From positions 124,001-188,000 of the forward strand of contig NZ_FOZS01000004.1 of assembly GCF_900116205.1 (NCBI RefSeq): a DNA stretch of 64,000 bases, given 5' to 3'. A program made the translations under genes and the position numbers. Below are positions 8,729 to 25,321 of this stretch, piece after piece. This DNA is from Halostagnicola kamekurae (GTDB taxonomy: Archaea > Halobacteriota > Halobacteria > Halobacteriales > Natrialbaceae). The notes under the pieces were generated by a model, which made no database searches, was not told the origin of the DNA, and saw only the letters and a list, made by a program, of their open reading frames with translations. The stretch's first letter is position 1. The number at the start of each line of letters is the position of its first letter.

Positions 8729-9492
8729 TAGATCCCTCGCGTCACAGTTGGTCGCGAAACGGCCGCCTCGAGCGGTCCGGAGGCAGTTCCGAGCAGTCCG
8801 GTCACCGTTCCGACCGGTCCGATCATCGTTCCACGGAGTCCATCCGTCACGATCGATGACCGTCGGGAAGCGGCGATCCTCGAGCGGCGACGACCGGTCG
8901 CGACTCCGAGACACGGACTCGAACGGCCGCCCGGAAGAGCAGAGGTAGATAGGTAGCGCTTCCAGCATATCGCGATCGGTAGAGATCGACACGGACTGAT
9001 AGCGAGCATACTGCTTCGAACGGTTGGCCAGCGGCCGAATAAGCGCCGTTCACCGTTCAGACGCTATCGGTCGGTTTAGCCGAATTAACCGTAATTAACG
9101 ACTATTGGATCGGATGAACGTTCGTCTAACGTGATATTCTGCGGCGTCACGTTTTCGCGGCGTCACCGTTTCGTAGCGTTACTGGGGCCCGTCTCGAGGG
9201 TCTTCTCACCAGCACGACCGCTCGTCACATTCTCGTAACTGCTCAGGAAGTCGGAACCGTACTTTCGGGGAGTGACGGTCGAACTCGTACTGCATCCATC
9301 CGGTCGCATACCGCCCAGCAGTATGCTTCCGAACGTACCAGGGCTGGTCGACCGTTCGCGACGTTATCCGGCGGATGCAACTCGCTCTACGCGGACTGTC
9401 TTTCAGTCCGTCTCACCCTCCAGCCGTAACTAAACGCGACCCCGTCACAGCCCGAAAAAATAGATTCGATGCCAGTTTCCGAACGCCGAGCG
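8729..9492. other. Intergenic, no gene recognised
   Basis: 764 bp between the acyltransferase start and the SnoaL-like gene end. The first 260 bp is GC-rich and repetitive (CGGTCCG-like units). Near 9082-9100 there is a direct repeat ATTAAC...ATTAAC in an AT-rich patch that may belong to the acyltransferase promoter region. I see nothing else. Confidence 0.5.
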
Positions 9493-9882
9493 CTACGCGT
9501 CGCCGACTTCGATCACGTACGACGTCATCGTGCGAATCGCGGCGTTCGATCCGGTGCTCGTGAACTCGTAGACGTCACAGAACGCGTACGCCGACCCGTC
9601 TTCCATCGTCACCGTTCCGTCGACCGCACCGGTCGCGCCGTGGGTGATGACGCGATCGACGGTCAACTCCGCGACGTCGTTATCTTTCATCTCCTCGAGC
9701 GCGCTGGCGACGTCGCCCCTCCCGTGGCGTTTCCGCTCGCCGACGCTGGTCCACTCGACGTCCTCGCTCACGGTCTCGAGGATGAACTCCTCGTCACCCT
9801 CCGCGAAGGCGACGTTGAAGTCTCTGAGCAGGGCCTTCTTCGGCGAGTTCCCGCAGTCTTCGGGCACCGTAATCGTCGTCAT
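9493..9882 (-). CDS. SnoaL/NTF2-like small protein
   Basis: 129 residues with the cone-shaped NTF2-like fold signature: LLRDFNVAFAEGDEEFILE at the N-terminus, a central GERKRHGRGDVASALE, and a C-terminal set of beta strands (VYEFTSTGSNAAIRTMTSYV). The ATG at 9882 overlaps the stop of the VOC gene (ATGA), so it is co-translated with it. Proteins of this kind bind or isomerise small molecules, or serve as polyketide cyclase-like enzymes; no specific reaction can be assigned. Confidence 0.8.
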   Translation of the reverse strand: MTTITVPEDCGNSPKKALLRDFNVAFAEGDEEFILETVSEDVEWTSVGERKRHGRGDVASALEEMKDNDVAELTVDRVITHGATGAVDGTVTMEDGSAYAFCDVYEFTSTGSNAAIRTMTSYVIEVGDA

Positions 9883-10805
9883 ACGTCGGCCTCCTCGCCG
9901 GTGGTGCCGGCGTGGACGTTCCGCAGTTCCTCGAGGTCGAGCTTTCGCATCCGGAGCATCGCCTCCGTGACTCGAGTGGCTCGGGCGGTGTCCTCGTCTC
10001 GAAGCAGCTCGGTGAGGCCGGCCGGAACGACCTGCCAGGAGACGCCGTACTTGTCTGTGAGCCAGCCGCACTGGCCTTCGGCTCCGCCGTCCGCCGTGAG
10101 GGCGTCCCAGTAGTAGTCGACCTCCTCCTGATCCGTGCAGTCGACGGCGAAGGAGATCGCCTCGTTGAACGCGGAGTCGTGGGCCCGCGTGCTATCCATC
10201 GCCGCGAAGCGCTGGCCGGCGAGGGTAAACTCCGCGAACGTGACGGTTCCTTCCTCGTCCGGCTCCTGGTCCGCACCGTAGCGGGCGATTTCGTTAATCT
10301 CAGCGTCGTCGAACGCCGAGGTGTAGAACGCCATCGCCGCTTCCGCCTGCCCGCATCGCTCGCCGGCGAACAGCAGCGACGGGACGAGTTTGCGTTCGGG
10401 GACATCCGGGGCATGTATCAGTTGCCACGAGACGCCGAACTCGTCGGTTACCCAGCCGTACCGATCGCTGAACGGGTACGAACCGAGGCTCATTAGCGTC
10501 TCTCCGTCCGCCGCAAGTTCCGTCCACAGTTCGTCCACCGCCTCGGCCGTCGGACAGTTGACGATGAACGATATCGACGGGTTGAACTCGAACTCCGGAC
10601 CGCCGTTGAGCGCGACGAACGATCTCCCCTCGAGTTCGAACTCGATCGTCATCACGCTGCCTTCGGGTCGTCCGCTGGCCGCCGCCGAGGCTTCGTCGTA
10701 CCGACCGACGCTTCCGGTCGAGGCGTCCTCGAAGATGGTCGTGTATCTGTCCACCGCGTCCGCCGCGTCGTCGTCGAACCACAGGGTCGGCGTGATTTTC
10801 TGCAT
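9879..10805 (-). CDS. Double-domain PhnB-like VOC superfamily protein
   Basis: 308 residues made of two tandem PhnB/3-demethylubiquinone-methyltransferase-type VOC domains. The first starts MQKITPTLWFDDDAADAVD and ends at about residue 135 (GVSWQLIHAPDV); the second mirrors it (KLVPSLLFAG ... KYGVSWQVVPAGL). A further 40-residue helical tail follows. The internal repeat is obvious by eye. Members of this group are bleomycin-resistance/glyoxalase relatives of unknown substrate. It lies 98 nt downstream of a MarR gene and overlaps the SnoaL-like gene by 4 nt. Confidence 0.85.
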   Translation of the reverse strand: MQKITPTLWFDDDAADAVDRYTTIFEDASTGSVGRYDEASAAASGRPEGSVMTIEFELEGRSFVALNGGPEFEFNPSISFIVNCPTAEAVDELWTELAADGETLMSLGSYPFSDRYGWVTDEFGVSWQLIHAPDVPERKLVPSLLFAGERCGQAEAAMAFYTSAFDDAEINEIARYGADQEPDEEGTVTFAEFTLAGQRFAAMDSTRAHDSAFNEAISFAVDCTDQEEVDYYWDALTADGGAEGQCGWLTDKYGVSWQVVPAGLTELLRDEDTARATRVTEAMLRMRKLDLEELRNVHAGTTGEEADV

Positions 10806-11478: not shown

Positions 11479-13281
11479 TCACAGCCGCGTGACCAGTGGA
11501 TTCTCGATGTCGATGTAGACGGATTCCGCCTCAAGCGGTGCCGCTAGTTCATCGCGGTCCTCGAAGCGGGTCCGGAGGTTCCCCTTGCAGGGAACGCGGC
11601 GGTCGTCGAGCAGCTTGCTGATCAGCGCCGATTCGGACGGTTCGTACGCTTCGAGGCCGACCAGTGATTCGCGGAGCACATCTAGAAGGGCCGTTTCGTC
11701 GGCGAGACCGGCAATGCCGAGGGCGTTGATCACTCCAAATGCGTTGTTGAGAACGACGTAGTATCGGACACAGTCGTCGGCGGTCGTGTCCGGACAGACG
11801 GTCTCAATTTGGTCGGTGACGCCGGGACACACCGCGTCGACGGTTTCACGGCGCGATTCCGGGACGTAAAACCCTTCGTTGTCGCGGTAGAACCCCTCGA
11901 CCGGCCAGCCGTCCTCGTCGAGTCGGACGAGCGTGTTCTGCTGGTGGGCTTCGAATCCGAGCCCGAGTTCGAAGTAGGTCCACAGTACGGGCTCGACGGT
12001 GACGGCCAGATACTCGCGGAACCACTCGCGGGCGACGGCACTCGTGGGCCGTCCCGACCGGTCCGCGAGGGCACGGATGAGGCGAGCGATACGCGATGGG
12101 CCGTCGATACCGTCCTGACAGAGCGCGACGACCGGGGAAACGTCGTTCGCGTCGTCTCCGCGAAACGGATTTTCTCTGAGCACAGTCTCGAATCCAGACT
12201 CCGGACCGGCGCCGATGTCGACTGTCAGTGCAGCCGGATCACGGACGACCGCGAATCGCGGGAACGACTCGTCGATTCGATCGGCGAGACCGGCCTCGAG
12301 GAGTCGCGTCACGGCGACGCCGAGCTCGAGTTCCGACACCTTACTGGTCCGCTCCGCGTTCGTTATCTCGACAGCGAGTGATGTCTTCACCATGAACGGC
12401 AACTCGGACGTCCAGAGCGTCCGAACTGACGATGTGGGGTACACCGTCGGCCCGAACGTTCCGAGGTCGGTGATCGACCCGCGTTCGAGCGCCCGCTGGA
12501 CGTGTGGCTGTGCGGAGAGCCACTCCGCTTGCCACGGATGGACCGGAATGACCGCCCGGTCCGATGCGAGCGCTCTCTCAGCCTCGGACGGGAGGGTCGC
12601 TTCGGCTGCTTTGAGCGCGTCAGCGATCCACTCCGTCGGTCCCGCGTTACGGGCGGACCAGCCGGTGATAAGATGCGGGTCGCTCGCGAAGTATCGGAGT
12701 TGAAACGCACCGCGGAGTTCCGGCGCGTACGTCGAGAGGTCGTGGTCGACTATCCCCTCGAGGCTCTTGGGAGCCGGGTGGAAGTGGTGGCCGTAGACGA
12801 GAGACTGCTCGGCGTCGCGGAACGTCGTTTCCGGACCGTACAGACGATCGAAGTCGTTACGTTCGTCGACGAGACGTTCGATCTTTCGCCGCGAGGCGAG
12901 CACGCGCCGGAGTAGATCCGTTCCGGCTGTCGAGTCGGCGGCCTCGGTCGACAGAACCAGTTCCCGCCTCGCAAGCGCTGCGAGCGAGGCGGCGTCGATC
13001 GGCTGCAACTCCCGGTCGTCGGAGCGCGCATAGACCGGCTTGTCGAACAGGTGCCGTCCCGTCGCCGACTCGTAGCGCAGCGGTGCGACGACCTCGACAC
13101 CGTGGTGCTTCAAGGGAGCGTGTGCGACCGTGCCCTCGACGCCGACTCCTGGCAGTGAAGTCTCCGCTTCGACGACCGATGCGGTGTCCGTCTCCCGGAG
13201 GTAGCAGTTAAGGAACGCGTGCAGTGTCGCGGACTCGGCGTGTTCGGATGGTGTCTCGCAGCCGGCGCCAACACCCGTCAT
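11479..13281 (-). CDS. IucA/IucC family NIS siderophore synthetase 1
   Basis: 600 residues, full length for the family. Visible motifs: GHHFHPAPKSLEG near residue 165 (ATP/phosphate binding region), AVIPVHPWQ, SVRTLW, LPFMVKTSLAVEITNAERT and the C-terminal FELGLGFEAHQQNTLVR. The enzyme adenylates a carboxylate, usually citrate or 2-oxoglutarate, and joins it to an amine. The ATG at 13281 overlaps the stop of the decarboxylase gene (ATGA), making it the third gene of a dat-ddc-iuc operon driven from the iron box at 16299. Likely acts on 1,3-diaminopropane made by its partners. Confidence 0.92.
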   Translation of the reverse strand: MTGVGAGCETPSEHAESATLHAFLNCYLRETDTASVVEAETSLPGVGVEGTVAHAPLKHHGVEVVAPLRYESATGRHLFDKPVYARSDDRELQPIDAASLAALARRELVLSTEAADSTAGTDLLRRVLASRRKIERLVDERNDFDRLYGPETTFRDAEQSLVYGHHFHPAPKSLEGIVDHDLSTYAPELRGAFQLRYFASDPHLITGWSARNAGPTEWIADALKAAEATLPSEAERALASDRAVIPVHPWQAEWLSAQPHVQRALERGSITDLGTFGPTVYPTSSVRTLWTSELPFMVKTSLAVEITNAERTSKVSELELGVAVTRLLEAGLADRIDESFPRFAVVRDPAALTVDIGAGPESGFETVLRENPFRGDDANDVSPVVALCQDGIDGPSRIARLIRALADRSGRPTSAVAREWFREYLAVTVEPVLWTYFELGLGFEAHQQNTLVRLDEDGWPVEGFYRDNEGFYVPESRRETVDAVCPGVTDQIETVCPDTTADDCVRYYVVLNNAFGVINALGIAGLADETALLDVLRESLVGLEAYEPSESALISKLLDDRRVPCKGNLRTRFEDRDELAAPLEAESVYIDIENPLVTRL

Positions 13282-14891
13282 CGGTGCACCTCTTCGAATT
13301 GCCCGCGGACGGCGTCGGTGTCGCGCCCGCCGCTGATGTCGCGTGCGTTCGACTGCGCCGCAGCCCGGGCAGCGTGGCCTTTCAGGGCGAGCAGGACCTC
13401 CCGGATGTCGTCGACGGTCGTCTGGGGGTTCATCAACGTGACCTTGAGATACGCACGGCCATCGACTTCGGTGCGAGCGACGACGCCGTCGCCGGACGTG
13501 AAGAGTCGATCGCGGGCGCGACGATTGACGCGGTCGACCCACTTGGGGGACGAGGAATCATTCTGCTGTGGCACGTACCGGAACGTGACGACGTTGATCG
13601 TCGGAGCACACGCGAGTTCCATCGCCGGATCAGATCGGACCATCGCCGCGGTCCGATCCGCGAGGTGGATCGTTCGGTCGATGAGCGAAGCCATTCCTTC
13701 CCGGCCGAGCGTCCGAAACGCGACGTACGGTTTGAGCGCGTCGAACCGGCGCGTCGTCTGGACCGACTTCGAGACGAGGTTCGGGACGCTATCCGTCTCC
13801 GGATTGAGATAGGCGGCGTTGCGACTCAGGAGATCGTACTCACTCTTGTCGGCCAACAGGAAGGCTCCGCAGGCAATCGGCTGGAAGAGTAGCTTGTGGA
13901 AGTCGACGGCCAGCGAGTCGGCGCGTTCGATCCCATCGAGCGTCCCGACGTGGCGCTCGCTCACCGCGAGCGCACCGCCGAGCGCGGCGTCGACGTGGTA
14001 CCAGAGGCCGTAGTCCTCGGCGAGATCCGCGAGCGTGTCGAGCGGATCGACGCTCCCGAAGTCGGTCGTCCCGGCCGTGCCCACGAGGGCAAACGGTCGT
14101 TCGCCGGCCCGTTTCAGCCGATCCAGCGTTTCTGCTAACTCGTCAGGGTCGATCCGGTGTCGGTCATCCGTCGGCACCGCAACGACGGCGTCCTCTCCGA
14201 GACCGATCTGGGCGGCCGCCTGCGCGACGGTGAAGTGTGCGTCCGCGGAGGTCAGTACCCGCATCGATTCGGCTTCGGGTGGGAGTCCCCGGCCCGCTGC
14301 CGAACGGTCGAACTCGTCGCGTACGTACCGCTCGCGGGCGACAAGCAGTCCCTGAAAGTTCGACTGGGTACCACCGGTGGTGACGACGCCATCGGCATCG
14401 GCTCCGAGATCGAACAGTGACGCGAGGTCGCCGATCAGCCGTTCTTCTATGACAGTCCCAGCAGGCGACTGGTCGAACGAATCGAGCGATTGGTTGAGTG
14501 CAGAGAGCAACGCCTCAGCAGCCAATCCCGGGATCATCGGTGGACAGTGGAGGTGGGCGATACAGGAGTCGTCGCTCGGGAACACCGACTTCGCGAGCAC
14601 GTCCGTCGTGATGTCATCGAGCACCTCCTCGAGATCATTCCCGGTTTCGGGCAAGGTATCACGGTCGAGCGTCTCGCGGAGGGCGGCGTACGTCGTGCCA
14701 GCGTACGGTTCGTCAGTGTCACCGACCGTCGAGAGTACCGCCTCGCGACAGCCATCCATCGCGGCGGCGTAGGCGTCGTTGCCCGTCGGTGTCCCGAGGA
14801 ATGACCGCTCAGCTAGCGCCAGCACATCGGAGCGGGCGGCTGCGTCCGTGGAGGTGTCGTCCTCAGGCCCACCTAGTTCGTACGAACTCAC
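13278..14891 (-). CDS. ddc: PLP-dependent L-2,4-diaminobutyrate decarboxylase
   Basis: 537 residues, group II amino-acid decarboxylase fold. Seen: VTTGGTQSNFQGLLVAR, TSADAHFTVAQAAAQIG, LVGTAGTTDFGSVDPL, YHVDAALGGAL and the PLP lysine in VDFHKLLFQP at about residue 333. In siderophore loci this enzyme (RhbB/Bdb type) turns L-2,4-diaminobutyrate into 1,3-diaminopropane. It overlaps its upstream and downstream neighbours by 4 nt each. Substrate specificity is inferred from the adjacent aminotransferase; a serine-type decarboxylase as in achromobactin loci is an alternative. Confidence 0.9.
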   Translation of the reverse strand: MSSYELGGPEDDTSTDAAARSDVLALAERSFLGTPTGNDAYAAAMDGCREAVLSTVGDTDEPYAGTTYAALRETLDRDTLPETGNDLEEVLDDITTDVLAKSVFPSDDSCIAHLHCPPMIPGLAAEALLSALNQSLDSFDQSPAGTVIEERLIGDLASLFDLGADADGVVTTGGTQSNFQGLLVARERYVRDEFDRSAAGRGLPPEAESMRVLTSADAHFTVAQAAAQIGLGEDAVVAVPTDDRHRIDPDELAETLDRLKRAGERPFALVGTAGTTDFGSVDPLDTLADLAEDYGLWYHVDAALGGALAVSERHVGTLDGIERADSLAVDFHKLLFQPIACGAFLLADKSEYDLLSRNAAYLNPETDSVPNLVSKSVQTTRRFDALKPYVAFRTLGREGMASLIDRTIHLADRTAAMVRSDPAMELACAPTINVVTFRYVPQQNDSSSPKWVDRVNRRARDRLFTSGDGVVARTEVDGRAYLKVTLMNPQTTVDDIREVLLALKGHAARAAAQSNARDISGGRDTDAVRGQFEEVHR

Positions 14892-16288
14892 GTTGCCCCT
14901 CCCGAGCGGTCAGTGACCGCGGCTTCGACGGCTTCGCGGAAGCGGGTTCCGACCTCGTCGACCTGGTCGTGGCTGATGGTCAGCGGTGGAAGGAACCGGG
15001 CGACTGCGGAGTCGCGGCCGCCGGTCTCGATGACGAGTCGACGCTCGAAACACGCCGCTTGGACGGCCGATGCGAGGTTGCCGTCGGGCTGTGGCCTTTC
15101 GTCGTCGGGTGCGTTCGGCTCGACAAACTCGACGCCGAGCATCAAACCGCGCCCGCGAACGTCTCCGACGACGTCGAACTCCGATGTGAGCTCGTGCAGA
15201 TGCGATCGCAGTCGCGTACCAACCTCGGCGGCGTGCTTGTCGAGGTCGTTCTCGAGTACGTGTTCGATAGTCACGCGGCCCGCAGCCATCGCCAGCTGAT
15301 GGCCCCTGAATGTGCCGGCGTGTGCACCCGGTTCCCACTCGTCTAATGATTCGTCATACACCACGACAGCGAGCGGCAGGCCACCGCCGATCGCCTTCGA
15401 ACAGGTGAGGACGTCCGGGATGATGTCCGCGTGCTCGAACGCCCAGGTCTCGCCGGTTCGGCCCATCCCAGTTTGGATTTCGTCGACGATCAGCGGGACA
15501 TCGTGCTCGGACGTGATTCGACGTAACTCCCGAACCCACTCGTCGGGCGCCGGATTCACGCCGCCCTCGCCTTGCACCAGTTCGACGATGGTCCCAGCGG
15601 GGTCGGTGACGCCGCTCGCCGGGTCTGTGACGACGCGTTCGACGAACTGGCTCACTGGCTCGTGGTCCCCATCGTCGAGGCCGAACGGGTGGCGGTACAG
15701 GTCCGGATACGGGAGGTGATGGACGTTGGAGGGCAGTCCGTGAACTGGTTCTTTCGCCCCAGTGTCGCCCATCAAACTGAGAGCGCCGGCGGTCATGCCG
15801 TGATAGCCGCCCTGAAATCCGAGGACGCTTCGGTTACCCGTGGCGGTCTTGACGAGCTTGAGCGCCGCCTCGACCGCGTCGGTGCCCGCGGGTGAACAGA
15901 ACTGGACCTTGGCGGTGTCGGTGAACTCGTCCGGGAGGCTGTCGAACAGCGCGTCCACGAAGGCCTCCTTCTCCGGTGTCGTAATGTCGAGTGTGTGCAG
16001 TGGGCGATCTTCGGCGAGCAACCGCTCTACCTCTCGGATTACTTTCGGATGGTTGTGTCCGAGGACGAGCGTCCCTGCTCCGGCGAGACAATCGATGTAT
16101 CGCTCGCCGTCTGCGTCAATGAGTTCGATACCCCGTGCCCGTTCGACGGCGAACGGCAGTGAGCGCGGATACGTCCGAGCGCACGATTCGCGTTCTGTCT
16201 GGCTCCGCCTGAGTCGCTCGTTCGAGTGGTCGTACCTCGATGGTATATTCGATGAATCACGTCGATGGTTGGATTTATCAGTTTGCAT
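14888..16288 (-). CDS. dat: Diaminobutyrate--2-oxoglutarate aminotransferase
   Basis: 466 residues, class III aminotransferase. Motifs: YIDCLAGAGTLVLGHNHP, FCSPAGTDAVEAALK, GGYHGMTAGALSLMG, VDEIQTGMGRTG (Asp269) and the PLP lysine Lys298 in TCSKAIGGGLPLAV. It makes L-2,4-diaminobutyrate from aspartate semialdehyde and glutamate, the first committed step toward 1,3-diaminopropane. First gene of the operon: the ATG at 16288 follows GGAG and lies 11 nt from an 18-bp perfect iron box that sits between a TATA-like TTTTTAAATT and the start. Iron repression is therefore expected. Confidence 0.93.
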   Translation of the reverse strand: MQTDKSNHRRDSSNIPSRYDHSNERLRRSQTERESCARTYPRSLPFAVERARGIELIDADGERYIDCLAGAGTLVLGHNHPKVIREVERLLAEDRPLHTLDITTPEKEAFVDALFDSLPDEFTDTAKVQFCSPAGTDAVEAALKLVKTATGNRSVLGFQGGYHGMTAGALSLMGDTGAKEPVHGLPSNVHHLPYPDLYRHPFGLDDGDHEPVSQFVERVVTDPASGVTDPAGTIVELVQGEGGVNPAPDEWVRELRRITSEHDVPLIVDEIQTGMGRTGETWAFEHADIIPDVLTCSKAIGGGLPLAVVVYDESLDEWEPGAHAGTFRGHQLAMAAGRVTIEHVLENDLDKHAAEVGTRLRSHLHELTSEFDVVGDVRGRGLMLGVEFVEPNAPDDERPQPDGNLASAVQAACFERRLVIETGGRDSAVARFLPPLTISHDQVDEVGTRFREAVEAAVTDRSGGAT

Positions 16289-16296
16289 CGCTCCAA

Positions 16297-16314
16297 TTTT
16301 AGGCTAGCCTAAAA
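16297..16314. promoter_or_regulatory. Iron box A (DtxR type), dat-ddc-iuc operon
   Basis: TTTTAGGCTAGCCTAAAA, a perfect 18-bp palindrome with core TTAGGCTAGCCTAA at 16299-16312. It resembles DtxR/IdeR boxes and is the best of eight such sites in this locus. It covers the TATA-to-start interval, so a bound repressor would block initiation. Confidence 0.85.
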
Positions 16315-16393: not shown

Positions 16394-17734
16394 TCAGTAG
16401 ACTCGCCGGAGTCGGTCCCGTTGCCACGAATTAGCACTTCTGGTGAACGACTCCCAGTGACTCCGTTTGACGCCCAGATACGTCTCGAACAGCTCCGATC
16501 CGAGCACGTCGCGCATGGTTTCGTTCGCTGCCAGCGCGTCGAGCGCTTGGCCGAGCGTTCGTGGGAGTCGGTCGATGTCTCGCCTTGTGCGCTCGGACGC
16601 GGAGAGGCTCCCCGGGTCGACACCGAGCTGTTCGGGCGGCTCGAGTTCGCGCTGGATGCCGTCGAGCCCCGCTGCGAGAAGCCCCGTGAGGGCGAGGTAT
16701 GGATTCGCGGTGTTGTCCGCGGCGCGAAATTCCAGTCGTGTCGATCCCTCGGAATCGTCGGGGTCTGGCGCGGGGATCCGAACGAGCGCCTCACGGTTCT
16801 CTTGGCCCCAGCAGACGAACGCCGCCGCGCCGATCTGTGGCCGCAGTCGGGCGTAGGAGTTGGCAGTCGGTGCCGCGAGTGCACAGAGGGCCGGCGCGTT
16901 GTCCAGGACGCCGGCGACGAACTGACGTCCGATCCGACTCAAACCCTCCCGGGCCGGGTTATAGAGGACGTTGCCGTCATCCCACAACGAGATATGAATA
17001 TGACAGCCGTTCGTCGAGTTGTCGAACGGTTTCGGGACGAACGTCGAGTGGTAGTCGTGCAATCGGGCGACGCTTTCGACAGTTTCCCTGAGGAGGACGT
17101 GTTCGTCGGCAGCACGAATGCTCGGCCGGTGACCCGTGACCACCTCGTGTTTCCCGGCAGCGTACTCCGGATAGTACTTTTTCACCGGGATGTCCTGTGT
17201 CGCGAGTGCGTCGACGATGCCCAGGATCGTTTCGTGCGTTTCGCGTGTGCTCGCCGTTGCGTACGCGCCCCGTTCGTCGACTCGTCGAGTCTCTCCGTCC
17301 TCGAGCCGTTCGAACAGGTGAAACTCGCTCTCGAAGGCGATCACCGGGGAGAGTCCTTTGTGCTCGAGATCGCGTTTGACCGACCGAAGCGACGACCTGG
17401 GGTCGACCGTCCAGGGGTCGCCATCGAGCGTCTCGATGTCACACAGCATCGCTCCGGTTCGGTCAGCGTATGGCAGCGCACGGAACGTGGACGGGTCCGG
17501 CCGAAGCCTGACCTCGCCTGCGGCGTCGAAGCGGCCGTCCTTGTCCCGACGCCCCAATGCGTTGTAAGTTTGTACCAGTTCGGAAACTGGCACGCCGGAC
17601 GAGACGGCGGCGTCGACCGTAGATGCCTCGACGGCGTGCGTTCGAACCGCGCCGCTTTGGGTGACAAATAGGAGCCGGACGAGGTCGACGCTGGCATCCA
17701 TCCACTCATCACCGGTAGAGTTCGTGTCTGTCAT
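16394..17734 (-). CDS. Glutamine-synthetase-like ligase of the siderophore locus
   Basis: 446 residues with a complete GS active site: Glu135/Glu137 in ESEFHLF, Glu190 and Glu197 around AAGKHEVV, His245 in NGCHIHIS, Arg296 in SYARL, Arg319 in VRIPAP and RLEFRAADNTANPYLALTG. N-terminal GEVRLRPD is as in PuuA/GlnA3-type gamma-glutamylpolyamine synthetases. Such enzymes activate the gamma-carboxyl of glutamate with ATP and attach an amine. It has its own iron box and points away from iucC. Inference: it may attach glutamate (or another carboxylate) to 1,3-diaminopropane or DABA during siderophore assembly; simple glutamine supply is the dull alternative. Confidence 0.85.
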   Translation of the reverse strand: MTDTNSTGDEWMDASVDLVRLLFVTQSGAVRTHAVEASTVDAAVSSGVPVSELVQTYNALGRRDKDGRFDAAGEVRLRPDPSTFRALPYADRTGAMLCDIETLDGDPWTVDPRSSLRSVKRDLEHKGLSPVIAFESEFHLFERLEDGETRRVDERGAYATASTRETHETILGIVDALATQDIPVKKYYPEYAAGKHEVVTGHRPSIRAADEHVLLRETVESVARLHDYHSTFVPKPFDNSTNGCHIHISLWDDGNVLYNPAREGLSRIGRQFVAGVLDNAPALCALAAPTANSYARLRPQIGAAAFVCWGQENREALVRIPAPDPDDSEGSTRLEFRAADNTANPYLALTGLLAAGLDGIQRELEPPEQLGVDPGSLSASERTRRDIDRLPRTLGQALDALAANETMRDVLGSELFETYLGVKRSHWESFTRSANSWQRDRLRRVY

Positions 17735-17757: not shown

Positions 17758-17775
17758 TTTTAGGTCAGCCTAAAA
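17758..17775. promoter_or_regulatory. Iron box B, GS-like gene
   Basis: TTTTAGGTCAGCCTAAAA; core TTAGGTCAGCCTAA at 17760-17773, 26 nt upstream of the GS-like start at 17734. Arms are perfect, only the central bases break symmetry. It gives the ligase its own iron-controlled promoter, divergent from iucC. Confidence 0.8.
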
Positions 17776-17871: not shown

Positions 17872-17887
17872 TTTAGGCTAGCCTAAA
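17872..17887. promoter_or_regulatory. Iron box C, leader ORF-iucC
   Basis: TTTAGGCTAGCCTAAA, a perfect 16-bp palindrome with core 17873-17886, ending 6 nt before the ATG at 17892. Same core as box A and same 6-nt offset as boxes E and G. Confidence 0.85.
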
Positions 17888-17891
17888 AATC

Positions 17892-17972
17892 ATGCAACTG
17901 CGTTTTACGCACACAAACTGCGTTGAATCGTCCGGCTTCCACCCAGTGACCGAGTTCCGGAGGGCTGCGTGA
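17892..17972 (+). CDS. 26-codon leader ORF before iucC
   Basis: An ORF from ATG 17892 (MQLRFTHTNC...) to TGA 17970-17972, whose stop overlaps the iucC start (TGATG). Its ATG stands 6 nt from iron box C and about 27 nt from the TATA box, exactly where a leaderless start is expected. It ends inside the iucC ribosome binding site context (GGAGG at 17959-17963). It may only couple ribosomes to iucC, or may act as a regulatory leader peptide. No homologue is known to me. Confidence 0.5.
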   Translation: MQLRFTHTNCVESSGFHPVTEFRRAA

Positions 17973-19819
17973 TGGATAACATAGAACGCATCGAGGCAGT
18001 GTTCAGGGAGGACGTGTGGGAACGCGTCAACCGAAACCTGTTACAGAAGGTCATCGCGGAGTTCATGTACGAGGACGTGCTTACCCCGAAGCCCGTGGCG
18101 ACCGTCTCGGCCGACGATGCCGAACCGGGCGAGTTCTGGAAACGGTACCACCTCACTCTGACAGATGGCGTCGAGTATCGATTTGAGATTCAGGAACGAC
18201 CGCTAGACAGCTATCGGGTTCGTCCGGGGACCATCCGGCGACGCGACGGCGATAACGCGTGGCAACCCGCTACCGACCCAATCCAATTCTTGCTTGATGC
18301 GCGCACGTATATCGGCATCGAGCCGACGACGACGGCCCACCTCGTCCGCGAGTTCGACAACACGCTCGTCGCTGACGCGCATATCGAGGCTGGGAAAACC
18401 GACCGGACGGATGTTTCGATCCTCGACTTGCCGTATGCCGAGGTAGAGGGAGAGATGGAGGGACATCCCTGGTATACGTACAATAAGGGTCGGATCGGGT
18501 TCGATTACGACGACTACCTGAAATACGCGCCCGAGTCGACGACACCACAGCGCCTGTCGTGGATCGCGGTCAGTCGCGAACGCGGAACGTTCACCGCCGT
18601 CGACGGACTCGATCACGCGGCTCTCCTAGCAGACGAGTTGGGCGACCGCTACGACGCGTTTCGAAGGAAGCTAGACGAGACGGGACTCGACCCGGCGGAC
18701 TACCTATATCTCCCCGTCCACGACTGGCAGTGGAACGACAGCATCGTCCAACTATTCGCCGAGGACATCGCCACCGACGCAATCGTCCCGCTCGGGGAAG
18801 GGCCCGACGAGTATCTCCCACAGCAGTCGATACGAACGTTCTCGAACGTCACCAATCCCGAGAAGCGACACGTGAAACTGCCGATCAAAGTGCTCAATAC
18901 GAACGTCTATCGTGGAATTCTAGGAGAGCAAGCTGAGGCGGCGCCGGCGGTGACCGAGTTCATCAAGTCGACGCGTGACGGCGACAGGTTCCTCCGCGAA
19001 GAGTGCGAATTACTCCTGCCCGGCGAGGTTGCCAGCGTCAACTACGACCATCCAAAATTTTCGCAATTTGACGAAGCACCGTACCAGTACCACGAGCTAC
19101 TCGGGTGTGTCTGGCGCGAGAGCGTCAATTCGATGCTGACCGAAGACGAGCGGCCGCTCACGCTCGCCGCACTCCTCCACGAAGACTTCGACGGGACGCC
19201 GGTCGCCGCGAAACTCGCCGACCGCGCCGGTCTCGAACTGGAGCGCTGGATCGACGAGTTTCTCGAAACGCTGCTCCACCCGTTGCTCCACTACCTCTAC
19301 AAGTACGGACTCGTGTTCATGCCACACGGGACGAACGTCGTGTTAGTCCACGAGAGCGGCGTCCCGACCCGAATCGCGGTCAAGGACTTCGTGGACGAGG
19401 TCGCCATCACCGACCGCGACTTCCCGGAACTAGAGGAGGTGCTTCCCCATCACTTGCGGGACGATGACCGATACAAACACCACATCCTTCACCGGGTTCG
19501 ACCTGATTCGTTGTGTCACCGCATCGTCGGTACGCTATTCGTCGGCGTGTTCCGCTACGTCGCCGACCTGCTTGCATGCCACCGCGGTTACCCGGAGACG
19601 AAGTTATGGCAGCAAGTCGACGACGCTATCGACGCCTACCACACCCGATTCCCCGAACTCGAGTCCCGGTTCGACCTGATCGACCTGCAGCGACCACGGT
19701 TCAAAAAGTACTGTCTCAACCGCAATCGGATGGTGAGACATGGCTACGAGGATGCGACCACCCGCCCCGACGTAGCGACCCACGGCACCCTCTCGAACCC
19801 CCTCTCCGATCTGCCCTGA
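17972..19819 (+). CDS. iucC: IucC-like NIS siderophore synthetase 2
   Basis: 615 residues. It differs from the other two synthetases in having EGHPWYTYNKGRIGF near residue 163 and PVHDWQWNDSIV, FSNVTNPEKRHVKLPIKVLNTNVYRGI and YKYGLVFMPHGTNVVLV, features of the IucC/RhbF/AlcC (type C) branch that condenses an amine with a citrate monoamide. ATG 17972 follows GGAGG by 8 nt; a GTG at 17969 is possible. Probably finishes the siderophore by the second amide bond. The downstream gap to the binding protein holds two iron boxes, so that gene has its own promoter. Confidence 0.92.
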   Translation: MDNIERIEAVFREDVWERVNRNLLQKVIAEFMYEDVLTPKPVATVSADDAEPGEFWKRYHLTLTDGVEYRFEIQERPLDSYRVRPGTIRRRDGDNAWQPATDPIQFLLDARTYIGIEPTTTAHLVREFDNTLVADAHIEAGKTDRTDVSILDLPYAEVEGEMEGHPWYTYNKGRIGFDYDDYLKYAPESTTPQRLSWIAVSRERGTFTAVDGLDHAALLADELGDRYDAFRRKLDETGLDPADYLYLPVHDWQWNDSIVQLFAEDIATDAIVPLGEGPDEYLPQQSIRTFSNVTNPEKRHVKLPIKVLNTNVYRGILGEQAEAAPAVTEFIKSTRDGDRFLREECELLLPGEVASVNYDHPKFSQFDEAPYQYHELLGCVWRESVNSMLTEDERPLTLAALLHEDFDGTPVAAKLADRAGLELERWIDEFLETLLHPLLHYLYKYGLVFMPHGTNVVLVHESGVPTRIAVKDFVDEVAITDRDFPELEEVLPHHLRDDDRYKHHILHRVRPDSLCHRIVGTLFVGVFRYVADLLACHRGYPETKLWQQVDDAIDAYHTRFPELESRFDLIDLQRPRFKKYCLNRNRMVRHGYEDATTRPDVATHGTLSNPLSDLP

Positions 19820-19886: not shown

Positions 19887-19900
19887 TTAGGCCAGCCTAA
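19887..19900. promoter_or_regulatory. Iron box E, proximal site of the binding-protein operon
   Basis: TTAGGCCAGCCTAA, perfect arms, ending 6 nt before the ATG at 19906. The string CCTAAAAATCATGC is shared with box C and its leader ORF. Confidence 0.8.
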
Positions 19901-19905
19901 AAATC

Positions 19906-21084
19906 ATGCTCGACGACAGTCGACTGACACGGAGACAGGTGTTCACAGGAACGACGACCGCGTTTTGTGCTTCACTCGCGGGGTGTGCGTCGGGTTTTGG
20001 ACTCGACGGAACGTCAGACTCGACGGATGGGTCGACTAACAGCCACGAGGCCTGCATCGAACCCGCCGGTTGCGTTACCTTCGAAGAAATCCCGGAGACG
20101 TACATCGTCAATAACGGAGAGTGGGCGGACATGGCGTTCGCGCTCGGCCAGCGGGACGGCTTCGTGACCTCGGCGTACATGATTCCCGGATTTCTCTTCG
20201 AGCCCTTCGGCCTCGACGTACCGCCGCTTTCGGAGACTGAGTCGCTGTCGCAAACGGACTGGGACAAAGAGATGTTCTTCGAACTCGATCCGGACGTCAT
20301 CCTGATGGATCCAAACTACATGCACAAGACGGGCTGGGATGACGCATGGGACGAATCCGATACCGAGGATATCAAGGAGCTTGTTGCCCCCTTCTTCGGA
20401 AACAACATACTTCGTCGTCGCGAATGGCACGACTACAAGCTGTACTCGCTGTATGGAGCGCTCGAGCGGCTCGCGGACCTGTTCGATGAGCGCGAGCGCT
20501 ACGAAGCTCTCGCCGACGTTCACGACTCCATGCAAGACGAGATTCAATCCCGGCTCCCGCCAACTGAGGAGCGTCCGGAAATTGGGCTGATCAACAGCGC
20601 GTCCAGCCCGAGGGAGGGGACGTTCTATCCGATGCGGACGCAGGTCGAAGGCGTCGAGTTGAAGCCGTACCGCGATCTCGATGTCGGTAGCGCCTTCTCG
20701 GAAAAACACGTACAGGGCGGGACTATCGGCTACGAGCAACTCCTCGAGGTCGATCCCGAGATACTCGTCGCCCACTGGGGAATCGGCATGACAGGCGACC
20801 AGAACACGTTCTCTCCGGAGGCGTTCCGTGAGAAGTATGTGCGGCCGCTCGAGGAGGACCCCGTCGGAAGCCAACTCACCGCCGTTCGAGAAGGCAACGT
20901 GTACCCGGGTGCGTTCGGTTCGCAAGGACCGCTGGTGAATCTCCTCCAAACCGAACTGGTCGCACAGCAGATGTATCCCGACGAGTTCGGTGCGTTCGAA
21001 CTCGAACGATTCCCCGAGATCCCCTCGGAAAAGCAGCTGTTTGACCGACAGCACGTAAGAGACATCGTCGCCGGCCGCATCTAA
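19906..21084 (+). CDS. Fe(III)-siderophore ABC transporter substrate-binding lipoprotein
   Basis: 392 residues. Tat signal with lipobox: TRRQVFTGTTTAFCASLAGC, lipidated Cys27, so anchored outside the membrane. A Thr/Ser-rich linker leads to a two-lobed periplasmic-binding-protein domain (FhuD/BtuF type) with ELDPDVILMD, GGTIGYEQLLEVDPEILV and VREGNVYPGAF. It would capture the ferric siderophore for the FecCD permease at 25467. The ATG is 6 nt from iron box E, implying a leaderless iron-repressed transcript. Followed by a 55-codon ORF and the ABC exporter in the same direction. Confidence 0.9.
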   Translation: MLDDSRLTRRQVFTGTTTAFCASLAGCASGFGLDGTSDSTDGSTNSHEACIEPAGCVTFEEIPETYIVNNGEWADMAFALGQRDGFVTSAYMIPGFLFEPFGLDVPPLSETESLSQTDWDKEMFFELDPDVILMDPNYMHKTGWDDAWDESDTEDIKELVAPFFGNNILRRREWHDYKLYSLYGALERLADLFDERERYEALADVHDSMQDEIQSRLPPTEERPEIGLINSASSPREGTFYPMRTQVEGVELKPYRDLDVGSAFSEKHVQGGTIGYEQLLEVDPEILVAHWGIGMTGDQNTFSPEAFREKYVRPLEEDPVGSQLTAVREGNVYPGAFGSQGPLVNLLQTELVAQQMYPDEFGAFELERFPEIPSEKQLFDRQHVRDIVAGRI

Positions 21085-21089
21085 CCACG

Positions 21090-21257
21090 ATGGATACAGA
21101 GCCACACGGGAACCGGGCGGAGCTTGCGAGCGGGCCCGAAATTGCTAGCCAGACGGGAGAGCTATCGCGGCGCATCGACGAGAACAGCCAGGCGAGCGGC
21201 CGAAGTGGCAGGTCGAGCCTCAGTTCGCGACAGCAGACCGATGGATCGATAGTATGA
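21090..21257 (+). CDS. 55-codon ORF coupling binding protein and ABC exporter
   Basis: ATG 21090 (MDTEPHGNRAELA...) begins 5 nt after the binding-protein stop; its TGA overlaps the exporter start (ATGA at 21254-21257). The product is very polar, rich in Ser, Gly, Arg and Gln, without a hydrophobic segment or known motif. The tight spacing argues for translation as part of the operon, but the odd composition leaves open that it is only a ribosome bridge. Confidence 0.45.
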   Translation: MDTEPHGNRAELASGPEIASQTGELSRRIDENSQASGRSGRSSLSSRQQTDGSIV

Positions 21258-23167
21258 GCACATCGGACGAGGACCGCAACGAGCGGGTATTCGAGACCTG
21301 CCAGAAGCGCGTCACCAGTCCTCTGCTTCGGCTGTTCCGCAAGTATGGGAGACCGGAGGCTGGCTGGTTGGTGGTGGGCTTGCTCGCTAGTTTGGGTGCC
21401 CACAGCGCGACGCTCGTGACACCGCTCGTCTTGGGAACGACGATCGACGCCGTCTTCACGGGGACGAGCGCTTATCGGCTACCCCTGGTACCAGTCGCGT
21501 GGCTGCCTTCGGAGCCGACGGGTCAATTTTGGCTGTCCGCCGGACTCGTCGCAGCATCGCTCCTGATGACGGCGGTGTTGACGTGGCTCCGGGGCGTCGC
21601 GATGAACGTCTTCGCCTACAAGATGCTATACGAGATACGGACAGACGCGTACGAGCGGCTCCAACGTCTCGATATGTCGTTTTTCGACAACACTCAGACC
21701 GGGGAGATAATGTCCGTCCTCGACAACGACGCGTCGAATCTCGAAACGTTCCTCGACAACGGCTTGAGTCAAAGTACCCGCATCTTTGCCGTCGTCATCG
21801 GTATCTCGGCCGTGCTCTTTCACACCAACGCGCAACTTGCGATGATCACGCTCCTCGCCGTGCCCTTACTGCTTGCGTTCACTTGGTGGTTCATGCGAGT
21901 CGTTGAGCCTCGTTACGCGACGCTCCGCTCGGTGATCGGAAACCTCAACACGCAGATCGAAAACGGCATCAGCGGGATCCAATTGGTCAAAACAGCGAAT
22001 ACCGAACTACACGAGAACGAAAAAATGCAAGCGGTGTCACGCGACGTGTTCGAGGCTCGAGTCGCCGTCTCGAAGCTGGCGTTTATCTACCGTCCAGGGA
22101 TGAAACTACTGACTGGGACGGCATTGCTCACGACGTTCATCGTCGGTGGCATCTGGGTCTTCGCTGGCCCACCGTTCGTGTTTTCCGGAGAGCTGAGCGT
22201 CGGCGATTTCGTCGTCTTCGTCCTGTTGACACAACAGCTAACCGCACCGCTCTCGCAGCTCTCGAACATCGTCGACTGGTACGAGAACGCGCGCGCCTCG
22301 GGAAAGCGGATCTGTGGGCTGTTCGATGTTCCGATTCGGGTCCGTGATTCCCCGGATGCAACCGTCCTCGACGCCGTCGATGGGCGGATCGACTACGAGG
22401 ATGTCCGGTTCGCTTACCCTGGTGGAGAGCAGGTCCTCGACGGGATCGACTTCACCGCTGAGACCGGTGAGACGGTCGCGCTGGTCGGACCGACCGGAGC
22501 CGGGAAGTCGACGGTCGCGAAGCTACTCGTGCGATTGCACGACGTCAACGGGGGGACCATCCGGATCGACGGACAAGACGTGGAAGGCGTCGATCTCGCT
22601 AGTCTCCGGTCGGCGGTCGGCTACGTTAGTCAGGGGACGGTGCTGTTCGATGGAACGATCGCCGAGAACATCCAATACGGCCGGTTCGACGCGACAGACA
22701 GGGAGATCCGCGACGCTGCGCGGGCCGCTCAGGCCCACGAGTTCGTCGAGCGACTCTCGGCTGGCTACGAAACGCAGGTGGGAGAGCGCGGCGTGAAACT
22801 CTCAGGCGGCCAGCGCCAGCGGATCGCACTCGCTCGAGTCATTCTTCAGGATCCGGCAATTGTCGTGCTCGATGAGGCGACTGCGAGAGTCGATACCGAG
22901 ACCGAAGCTCTCATCCAAAAATCGTTGGATCGTCTCACGGCAAACCGTACGACGATCGCGATCGCCCACCGACTATCGACCATCAAGGACGCGGACAAAA
23001 TTCTCGTCCTCGACGACGGTCAGATCGTCGAGCGAGGCACCCACCAGTCGCTTCTGACTGAGGACGGCCTCTACGCGAACCTCTGGGGGGTACAGGCGGG
23101 AGAGATCGAAGCGTTACCTGATGAGTTCTTCGAGCGGGCCGCCGAGTCGTGGATCACTCACGAGTGA
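21254..23167 (+). CDS. ABC exporter, fused membrane and ATPase domains
   Basis: 637 residues. Residues about 35-340 carry six membrane spans with exporter loops (YEIRTDAYERLQRLDMSFFDN, TGEIMSVLDNDASNLE). The ATPase follows with Walker A GPTGAGKST near 412, Q-loop, LSGGQRQRIALARV signature, Walker B IVVLDEATA and the IAHRLSTIKDAD switch. MsbA-like half-transporter, working as a homodimer. In a siderophore locus it is the likely exporter of the finished desferri-siderophore. It is co-transcribed with the binding protein from boxes D/E. Drug or lipid export is a less likely alternative. Confidence 0.9.
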   Translation: MSTSDEDRNERVFETCQKRVTSPLLRLFRKYGRPEAGWLVVGLLASLGAHSATLVTPLVLGTTIDAVFTGTSAYRLPLVPVAWLPSEPTGQFWLSAGLVAASLLMTAVLTWLRGVAMNVFAYKMLYEIRTDAYERLQRLDMSFFDNTQTGEIMSVLDNDASNLETFLDNGLSQSTRIFAVVIGISAVLFHTNAQLAMITLLAVPLLLAFTWWFMRVVEPRYATLRSVIGNLNTQIENGISGIQLVKTANTELHENEKMQAVSRDVFEARVAVSKLAFIYRPGMKLLTGTALLTTFIVGGIWVFAGPPFVFSGELSVGDFVVFVLLTQQLTAPLSQLSNIVDWYENARASGKRICGLFDVPIRVRDSPDATVLDAVDGRIDYEDVRFAYPGGEQVLDGIDFTAETGETVALVGPTGAGKSTVAKLLVRLHDVNGGTIRIDGQDVEGVDLASLRSAVGYVSQGTVLFDGTIAENIQYGRFDATDREIRDAARAAQAHEFVERLSAGYETQVGERGVKLSGGQRQRIALARVILQDPAIVVLDEATARVDTETEALIQKSLDRLTANRTTIAIAHRLSTIKDADKILVLDDGQIVERGTHQSLLTEDGLYANLWGVQAGEIEALPDEFFERAAESWITHE

Positions 23168-23229: not shown

Positions 23230-23243
23230 TTAGGCTGGCCTAA
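23230..23243. promoter_or_regulatory. Iron box F, third synthetase
   Basis: TTAGGCTGGCCTAA with perfect arms, embedded in CCTATTTTTAGG, a TATA-like run centred about 27 nt before the ATG at 23255. Operator and core promoter therefore overlap. Confidence 0.8.
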
Positions 23244-23254
23244 AATAAAGGGCA

Positions 23255-25321
23255 ATGACGAGACGCCTGGTACACGACGGGAGAGAGGAGTCGGCGCCGC
23301 TTACCCACGCAGCGTTGACGGTCTGCGAGCGGCGAGTGTTGCCCGCGGCGGCGTACTACGCCGACCGGCACAATCTATCGATGCCTGCTGACGAAGCGTA
23401 TCGGCGTGAACTGGTACCGGCGCGGCGCTCGATATTGGATCGGTTGCTCGGCGGACTGGCTCGCGACGTACCCCGAGGAATTTCGGACCCGATGACGGTC
23501 GACGCCAGCGAAGGGTTGGCAGAGCAAGTCGACGCCCTCTCGGGTGTTCCGGAACTGTGTGCGATGCCCGAACAGCTTCCCAATCCCGGTGATGCCGACC
23601 AACTGCTCCTGATCCGGTTCCCGAGCGCGGCGGCGACGGTCGTCACACCTCTCTGTTCGATCCGAGGGTTCGACCGATTCGAGTTCGGCCGCTGGGCCGT
23701 GACGTGTCGCTCGGACGGAGTCGAACCTATCGGATCCCCTGAATCACTCGTCTCGCTTCTGTACGGATCGGACGCCATCCCGACGGCAGACGACGCGGAT
23801 CGGTTCCGATCGGAAATTGGGGAGAGCGTTGCGAACCTCGCGTTAGCACGACTTGGTCGGCGGGTGCTGTGGGACGATTTCGACGTACCGCCGACGCCGA
23901 CGGCGGAAGAGACGCGTTCGGCAGCCGACTCGATGGCGTTCTTCGATCGGTTGGTATCGGGCGGCCACCCGATCCATCCTGGTGCGAAACTCCGACAAGG
24001 TATGTCGGCGACTGAAGCGCTGTCGCTCACTCCCGAGTTCGTCGATTCGATCCAGCTCCGTTTTGTCGCCATCGACGAGGCGTGGACACTCTCGGTGGCC
24101 GACAGCGGACCCTCGCTGACCGAGCGGCTTTACGAGTTGTTTCCCGGACTCGCGGACGCAACTGCAGCCGCGGTGCCGCCCGATCGTGATCCCGATAGCT
24201 ACGCCGTCGTTCCCGTCCACCCATGGCAGTTCAGGCACGTCGTCCCCGACCGCTACGCGGTCGCCCGGCGAGACGATCGCGTCGTTCCGGTCCCGTCGTA
24301 CACGCGGTCGGTCTCGCCGTTACTCTCACTGCGGACGGTCGTCCCTGACCCGGCCGAGAGCGCGATCGCGACGCCTCCTCATCTCAAGCTCGCGATCGGC
24401 ATCCAGACGACGAACGCAGTCCGAACCCTCTCGCCGAGCGTCGTCGCCGACGGGCCACAATTGAGTCAGTTTCTCCAGCGAACCTGTGAGGGGGCTTCGT
24501 TTGAACGCTTCGGTATCCGTCCGGAGTCCGCGACAACGTGTTACTACCCGCCGGACGGCTCCCGCTATCAGGGAACGAGATACGACGACGTTCGACACCT
24601 CGGAGCGCTCCTCAGACAGAGTCCAAACCGTCACCCGGTCGTCGATGATGGCGAGCGAGTGATGACCGCCGCGAGCCTTCTCTCGTGTCCGCCACCGGGC
24701 GATCGATCGGTGCTCTCGGCACTCCTGGATGCGTACGGTGACAGTGAGGGGACCGCGAGCAGGGCCGAGACCGTCGACGGCTTTCTCTCGGCTTACCTCG
24801 ACGCGGTCGTTCCAGGACCGCTGACGCTTTTCGTGAAACACGGTATCGCCTTGGAGGCCCACCTTCAGAACACGGGTATCGTGTTCGACGACGGCCGGCC
24901 AGTGGGCGCGCTCGTCGGTGATTTCGGCGACATTAGATTGCTCGAGCAACGCCTCGAGGACGCCTCGATCGACCTCTATCCAGGGTCGGATGTCTGTACC
25001 CAGGACCCAGACGAAGCGCGCGAGAAACTCTGGTACGCACTGTTCCAGAATCATCTCGGGGAGCTGGTTGGCCGACTAGCCGCGACCGAGCCCGTATCCG
25101 GACCCGACTGCTGGTCTCTCGTCAGAGGACGATGCGAGCGCGTGTTCGATCGACTCGCAACCGATGGGGCGATACCCGACGACTGGATCGCGGCTGACCG
25201 CGACTCGCTTTTCGCGTCGCGTCTCGCTCACAAGCCGCTGACCGCCATGCGGCTTCGGGACGTAGACGAGTGGCCCCGAACGACGGTGGCGAATCCACTA
25301 GCTGACTCGGACGAGCGGTGA
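23255..25321 (+). CDS. IucA/IucC family NIS siderophore synthetase 3
   Basis: 688 residues, longer than the family norm of about 580-620, with an extended N-terminus. Motifs: GGHPIHPGAKLRQGMS near residue 237, AVVPVHPWQFRHV, SPLLSLRTVV, LKLAIGIQTTNAVRT and VKHGIALEAHLQNTGIV. The C-terminus has LWYALFQNHLGELV. It is closer in motifs to synthetase 1 than to the IucC-like one. It provides a third carboxylate-amine condensation. Monocistronic under iron box F; leaderless start at 23255. Its exact substrates cannot be read from sequence. Confidence 0.92.
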   Translation: MTRRLVHDGREESAPLTHAALTVCERRVLPAAAYYADRHNLSMPADEAYRRELVPARRSILDRLLGGLARDVPRGISDPMTVDASEGLAEQVDALSGVPELCAMPEQLPNPGDADQLLLIRFPSAAATVVTPLCSIRGFDRFEFGRWAVTCRSDGVEPIGSPESLVSLLYGSDAIPTADDADRFRSEIGESVANLALARLGRRVLWDDFDVPPTPTAEETRSAADSMAFFDRLVSGGHPIHPGAKLRQGMSATEALSLTPEFVDSIQLRFVAIDEAWTLSVADSGPSLTERLYELFPGLADATAAAVPPDRDPDSYAVVPVHPWQFRHVVPDRYAVARRDDRVVPVPSYTRSVSPLLSLRTVVPDPAESAIATPPHLKLAIGIQTTNAVRTLSPSVVADGPQLSQFLQRTCEGASFERFGIRPESATTCYYPPDGSRYQGTRYDDVRHLGALLRQSPNRHPVVDDGERVMTAASLLSCPPPGDRSVLSALLDAYGDSEGTASRAETVDGFLSAYLDAVVPGPLTLFVKHGIALEAHLQNTGIVFDDGRPVGALVGDFGDIRLLEQRLEDASIDLYPGSDVCTQDPDEAREKLWYALFQNHLGELVGRLAATEPVSGPDCWSLVRGRCERVFDRLATDGAIPDDWIAADRDSLFASRLAHKPLTAMRLRDVDEWPRTTVANPLADSDER

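Follow-up and report, generated by a model that had tools for sequence, protein, structure and literature searches.

An iron-boxed ligase of the glutamine synthetase superfamily, probably forming gamma-glutamyl amides, accompanies one branch of NIS siderophore synthetases in haloarchaea

The gene at positions 16394 to 17734 of the stretch of Halostagnicola kamekurae DNA analysed here (64,000 nucleotides, called the window) probably encodes an ATP-dependent gamma-glutamyl-amine ligase of the glutamine synthetase (GS) superfamily that has lost the use of ammonia, belongs to an iron/siderophore regulon and glutamylates the diamine of the pathway around it; we give this joint reading a probability of about 0.8. 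Operator, gene linkage, co-occurrence and co-divergence all connect the GS-fold ligase with one particular branch of NIS synthetases, and the recurrence of the ligase across related species suggests an unrecognised step in siderophore making or recycling. To our knowledge the chemistry of archaeal siderophores is nearly unexplored, and the role of the ligase is open to testing in tractable haloarchaea. The GGputSyn (gamma-glutamylputrescine synthetase) ligase family and NIS clusters are known already; the iron operator, the clade-specific association with NIS genes and the pairing of the ligase with NIS1 were not found in the literature searched and appear to be new. No earlier report that places a GS-like gene among NIS genes was found there either, though the comparison of DtxR regulons by Leyn and Rodionov may list the gene.

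The ligase and its neighbours in the window, with clade and type as defined below, are:

11479 to 13287, minus strand: NIS3, an NIS synthetase in the IucA position (PF04183, 193 bits; PF06276, 115 bits; presumed start at 13287)
13278 to 14891, minus strand: DDC, a PLP decarboxylase, probably L-2,4-diaminobutyrate decarboxylase, overlapping DAT (NF052646, 417 bits, under the cut-off of 900)
14888 to 16288, minus strand: DAT, diaminobutyrate--2-oxoglutarate transaminase (TIGR00709, 488.5 bits, cut-off 401.6)
16299 to 16312: iron box TTAGGCTAGCCTAA, upstream of DAT
16394 to 17734, minus strand: probable GS-superfamily gamma-glutamyl-amine ligase (GGputSyn, clade S, type A), 446 residues, from the open reading frame, NF045547, residues and tree
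17760 to 17773, plus strand: iron box TTAGGTCAGCCTAA, ligase promoter, -39 to -26 from the ligase start
17873 to 17886: iron box TTAGGCTAGCCTAA, divergent promoter region of NIS1
17969 to 19819, plus strand: NIS1, an NIS synthetase of type C in the iucC position (PF04183, 251 bits; closest solved structure DesD)
19887 to 19900: iron box TTAGGCCAGCCTAA, before the substrate-binding protein gene
19906 to 21084, plus strand: predicted lipoprotein substrate-binding protein of the ferric-siderophore type (Peripla_BP_2 in a relative; conserved position)
21254 to 23167, plus strand: candidate siderophore exporter of the ABC type, fused membrane/ATPase, MsbA-like
23230 to 23243: iron box TTAGGCTGGCCTAA, before NIS2
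23255 to 25321, plus strand: NIS2, the third NIS synthetase, weakly FslA-like (PF04183, 181.5 bits; FslA model, 142.8 bits, under its cut-off)
25467 to 26582, minus strand: FecCD-type permease

The sequence-only reading had placed the ligase gene between the diaminobutyrate genes and iucC, and this position is confirmed. A single open reading frame on the minus strand spans the gene, flanked by DAT and DDC (16288-13278, minus strand) and by the IucA/IucC-family gene NIS1 (17969-19819, plus strand), which scores 347 bits against DesD. DAT, DDC and NIS3 are all encoded on the minus strand, from 16288 down to 11479, and the predicted product of DDC is 1,3-diaminopropane. About 14 kb from the ligase, at 1320-2804, the window also holds a MATE exporter gene whose product is 47% identical to the MATE protein encoded beside the ligase of Haloferax mucosum.

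The ligase passes the curated cut-off of the GGputSyn model NF045547 (712.5 bits over 434 residues, cut-off 650), fails that of the GlnA equivalog model (263.7 bits, cut-off 429) and matches Gln-synt_C (PF00120, 317 bits) and Gln-synt_N_2 in Pfam. Its AlphaFold2 model (pLDDT 79, pTM 0.85) has the GS fold, with archaeal GS as the best Foldseek matches (TM about 0.86). Residues were mapped against the second GS-family protein of the same genome (C1:624 kb), in which the canonical residues are present. A full GS active site had been proposed for the ligase, and the mapping corrects this proposal: of 16 catalytic residues mapped, ten are retained (the two metal Glu, E212, E220, H269, R321, R339, R344, E357 and R359), the ammonia-site and flap residues are replaced (D50 by S51, S53 by L53, Y179 by A157 and E327 by G302), and N264/G265 of the acid loop are changed to S240/T241. 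Judged by its sequence, the protein is probably a gamma-glutamyl-amide ligase and not a maker of glutamine.

To place the ligase among its relatives, 292 haloarchaeal genomes were scored with the GGputSyn model. A protein above 600 bits was found in 28 of them, with a clean gap down to 385 bits. In the tree a clade S (28 rows, support 100/96) stands apart from a sister group that includes proteins of Haladaptatus, Haloplanus and Halopenitus, and clade S splits into type A, to which the window ligase belongs, and type B. The signature of clade S is Thr241, present in 28 of 28 where other proteins have Gly, together with a deletion of one residue in the acid loop and Arg337 where others have Lys. 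It occurs in 19 of the 292 genomes, representing five families and ten genera, and NIS (IucA/IucC) genes are present in all 19, versus 57 of the 273 others (Fisher p 1.2e-12, kinship ignored). Genomes with the sister clade only have NIS genes in none of nine cases. Linkage with NIS genes, which the sequence-only reading had made the test of its own idea, is conserved: 16 of the 19 genomes have a clade S gene no more than 10 kb from NIS genes. The expected co-occurrence with three-synthetase clusters stands only in the wider form of co-occurrence with NIS genes; the ligase is also found in two-synthetase clusters, both hydroxamate and non-hydroxamate. NIS1 and the ligase are transcribed divergently, on either side of two boxes, in the window and in loci L034-L038, L054, L055, L060/L070, L061, L068, L069 and L071. 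At L068 (Haloarcula pellucida) a DAT gene remnant lies behind the ligase-MFS pair at 12540-12805, an intact DAT being present in L146; the remnant implies that the cluster once extended past this pair.

The proposal that the ligase has an iron operator of its own was also upheld. The exact box TTAGGNNNNCCTAA occurs in the window at 16299, 17760, 17873, 19887 and 23230, and three more sites have one mismatch; eight boxes with at most one mismatch were thus observed versus 0.26 expected from shuffles. The ligase box, flanked by T and A runs, lies 26-39 nt before the start, and an exact box is found in the same place, between -51 and -14, in 15 of 15 type-A genes compared. From the motif, the regulator would be of the DtxR/SirR type. 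Leaderless transcripts are common in haloarchaea; if the ligase transcript is leaderless, the box covers the expected TATA position and a bound repressor would block transcription. Among the tree rows of type A, the box is directly upstream in 17 of 18, with L056 at the base of the type. Most type-B ligase genes follow a gene for a binding protein or an IucB-like acetyltransferase in a boxed operon, and the one in L044 has a box directly in front of it. In L043 and L074 no exact box precedes the ligase gene; L074 (Halocatena pleomorpha) has lost its exact boxes. No box was found at nine sister-clade loci of about 20 kb each or in 890 kb of bacterial loci, and none of 56 bacterial loci had NIS genes or boxes nearby.

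The biochemistry of one relative bears directly on the activity. Recombinant GlnA-2 of Haloferax mediterranei (HFX_1688, E6P09_11460) displays glutamate-putrescine ligase activity and no GS activity; it has lost D50 and E327, has Ala in place of Y179 and carries Cys375, and its deletion slows growth on putrescine, the substrate tested being putrescine and not diaminopropane (PMC8394153). The ligase of H. mucosum (L042/L072) is 59% identical to the window ligase, has a Cys at aligned position 375 and an iron box at -36, and its neighbours (a MATE gene, a binding protein gene and a second ligase gene) reproduce the GlnA-2 gene order. By Cys375 and gene order it looks like the ortholog of GlnA-2, and through this counterpart we infer that GlnA-2 falls in the same clade as the window ligase. 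The earlier suggestion of a GS-like ligase for gamma-glutamyl amides was likely right in kind, in view of the NF045547 score, the residues and the activity of GlnA-2 (PMC8394153). GlnA-2 resembles the window ligase in its residue losses and, as seen in the H. mucosum counterpart, in the iron box and in the order glnA2, binding protein, glnA3; it differs in having been described under nitrogen and polyamine catabolism, without a link to iron, and in lying outside any NIS cluster. RNA-seq of H. mediterranei under denitrification showed decreases in log2 of 4.05 for glnA2, 4.25 for the neighbouring binding protein and 5.37 for glnA3 (17- to 41-fold), together with decreases of 6 to 7 for the siderophore operon and an increase of a SirR-type repressor; what the decrease of glnA2 and glnA3 meant was unclear to its authors (PMC11218638). 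Control of both genes by an iron box would account for their drop alongside the siderophore operon, and we suggest that GlnA-2, so far assigned to nitrogen metabolism, is a member of the iron regulon. Glutamylation of diamines by a GS fold, a chemistry presumably common to the window ligase, is also carried out by E. coli PuuA and by the gamma-glutamylpolyamine synthetases GlnA2 and GlnA3 of Streptomyces; these differ in their nitrogen- or polyamine-related contexts, and we know of no siderophore linkage for them.

The ligase is paired with one kind of NIS1. When genomes are ranked by score to the window NIS1, the ligase is in the cluster of each of the first ten, which score 864 bits or more, and is missing from the next, at 772 bits. 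A group of 15 in the NIS1 tree (SH-aLRT 92, not starred) consists solely of copies with a ligase in their own cluster. Halegenticoccus (L071) and H. pleomorpha (L074) each have two NIS1 copies, of which the ligase-side copy is inside this group and the copy from a full schizokinen-type operon is outside. In Halocatena marina and Haloarcula pellucida, an NIS1-ligase-MFS unit is separate from a DAT-DDC-NIS3-IucB-IucD locus that has no NIS1 of its own. These NIS1-ligase-MFS loci were considered as self-contained pathways and rejected as such, the remaining schizokinen-type genes being elsewhere in those genomes.

IucB and IucD were not found beside the NIS genes of the window, so the cluster does not qualify as schizokinen-type. 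The same genome does have an IucB-IucD-type pair on another contig, at about 503 kb on C1 (L145 = G000:C1:494000-513500, 8459-10413), between glycosyltransferase and asparagine-synthase-like genes and downstream of two imperfect near-boxes, TTTGGTTGGCCTAA and TGAGGATGGCCTAA, 29 nt apart. This pair may be a split hydroxamate unit or part of an N-hydroxylated glycan or peptide pathway, and by way of it the product of the window cluster may be a hydroxamate after all. The iron-regulated schizokinen cluster of Haloferax volcanii, six genes (HVO_B0041-B0046), is like that of the window in DAT, DDC, two NIS synthetases and iron regulation, and differs in that IucB and IucD are inside it and a GS-like gene was not reported there (PMC7407949). 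In our profile search no H. volcanii protein was over the GGputSyn cut-off.

Elsewhere the ligase is found both in hydroxamate-type clusters with IucB and IucD (L034, L036, L044, L049, L053, L056, L067 and L069) and in clusters that lack these two genes. Genomes with NIS genes and DDC have it in four of four cases when IucD is lacking (G105, G168, G184 and G171) versus 12 of 55 when IucD is present, a weak contrast in that three of the four belong to one genus (p 0.004, kinship ignored). Its absence from the other 43 of the 55 indicates that the ligase is not required for schizokinen-type clusters as such. Three Haloarcula-group genomes (G083, G084 and G114, with loci L051, L054 and L055, the last from Haloarcula amylolytica) keep DAT, NIS1 and the boxed ligase, and DDC and IucD were found nowhere in them. 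Since DAT is present and DDC absent, the amine in these clusters is likely diaminobutyrate and not diaminopropane.

For the product of the ligase, the use that we favour, tentatively and at somewhat less than even odds, is that of a siderophore building block. When iron is scarce, a DtxR-family repressor would come off the box over the ligase promoter, and the ligase would couple glutamate, through its gamma-carboxyl, to a small diamine that the siderophore pathway provides, presumably 1,3-diaminopropane made by DAT and DDC, or diaminobutyrate where a cluster lacks DDC. NIS1 would then join the free amine of the gamma-glutamyl-diamine to citrate or a citrate monoamide, and the siderophore would gain an amino-acid head group, replacing the hydroxamate or beside it; a parallel would be the 2-oxoglutaryl amide in staphyloferrin B and achromobactin. 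Those two siderophores are made with three NIS synthetases from diamine units and contain a gamma-linked amide of a five-carbon diacid, which is 2-oxoglutarate, added by an NIS enzyme. The window cluster is like theirs in its three NIS synthetases and its diamine; the GS-like ligase is in the window cluster only, and we know of none in those pathways.

Use as a building block is preferred because one NIS1 branch is paired with the ligase, because all IucD-less diamine clusters have it, because it is kept without DDC and because a PuuD-type gamma-glutamyl hydrolase (PF07722) is missing from the window genome and from 26 of the 28 genomes. The amidase, MOSC and aldolase genes around type-B ligases speak against it, since they look more like breakdown, as do the absence of the ligase from most schizokinen-type genomes and the growth on putrescine through GlnA-2 (PMC8394153). 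It is possible, and a shade more doubtful than the building block itself, that a dedicated NIS branch builds the gamma-glutamyl-diamine into an archaeal siderophore by a hybrid GS/NIS route, in which enzymes with a GS fold would serve as amide synthetases for siderophores. Whether the product is a building block or a means of amine disposal, its formation would, if true, be a new step in NIS siderophore metabolism, of which we found no description.

The strongest rival reading, on balance unlikely, is the disposal or recycling of amines. Surplus diaminopropane or diaminobutyrate, or diamine freed from imported ferric siderophore, would be tagged as a harmless gamma-glutamyl amide for catabolism or for export through the adjacent MFS or MATE protein, and the ligase would be regulated by iron because the amine is made when iron is scarce. 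The accessory nature of the ligase (missing in 43 of the 55 genomes above), the support of putrescine growth by GlnA-2 (PMC8394153) and the exporter gene adjoining the ligase in many loci all agree with this, and so do the genes around type-B ligases, several with boxes, which encode an amidase, a MOSC protein, a second acetyltransferase of the IucB type and aldolases of the HpcH/HpaI or RraA type. This gene set plausibly serves to dismantle an acetyl-hydroxamate citrate siderophore. However, the three Haloarcula genomes keep the ligase without DDC, and hence without that route to diaminopropane, the ligase is paired with one NIS1 subgroup, and the PuuD-type hydrolase is mostly missing. The module of amidase, box, IucB2 and type-B ligase was seen at L045, L046, L058, L063 and L079, and MOSC with HpcH/HpaI at L043, L045, L046 and L063.

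Plain putrescine catabolism of the E. coli Puu type, with siderophore genes nearby by chance, would agree with the NCBIfam name and with the published role of H. mediterranei GlnA-2 (PMC8394153). We consider it improbable given NIS genes in every clade S genome and iron boxes in every type-A gene compared; furthermore, no Puu-type genes were recognised adjoining the ligase, the PuuD family is absent from 26 of 28 genomes, and the sister clade, which has neither boxes nor NIS genes, is a better match for such a role.

There is also a slim chance that the acid is not glutamate but citrate, 2-oxoglutarate or an aldol product, the ligase itself being the amide-forming siderophore synthetase. The clade-specific change of the acid loop, which binds the substrate acid in GS, would fit this, as would the recurrent RraA or HpcH/HpaI aldolase neighbours and a boxed H. 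mucosum locus that has two ligases, an aldolase, an exporter and a binding protein and no NIS gene within 20 kb. Against it, GlnA-2 of the same clade was reported to be active as a glutamate-putrescine ligase (PMC8394153). That H. mucosum locus (L042, 4655-12149) contains six iron-boxed genes, for an RraA-like aldolase, a NodB/PuuE-like deacetylase, a MATE exporter, two GS-like ligases and a binding protein; the set recurs in L049 and L053 and is embedded in an NIS cluster in G143 and G207. As an SbnG-like supply of citrate, the HpcH/HpaI neighbours are a loose match, with 58 bits to structure entries 4tv5/4tv6, which we take to be SbnG, versus 99 bits to another family member.

Finally, GS proper (EC 6.3.1.2), supplying nitrogen or glutamine to the pathway, shares the fold and provides the best structural matches, yet we reject it as very improbable because Asp50, Ser53, Tyr179 and Glu327 of the ammonia site and flap are all replaced and the GlnA score is too low (264 versus 429), and the genome has in its second GS-family gene one with the canonical residues.
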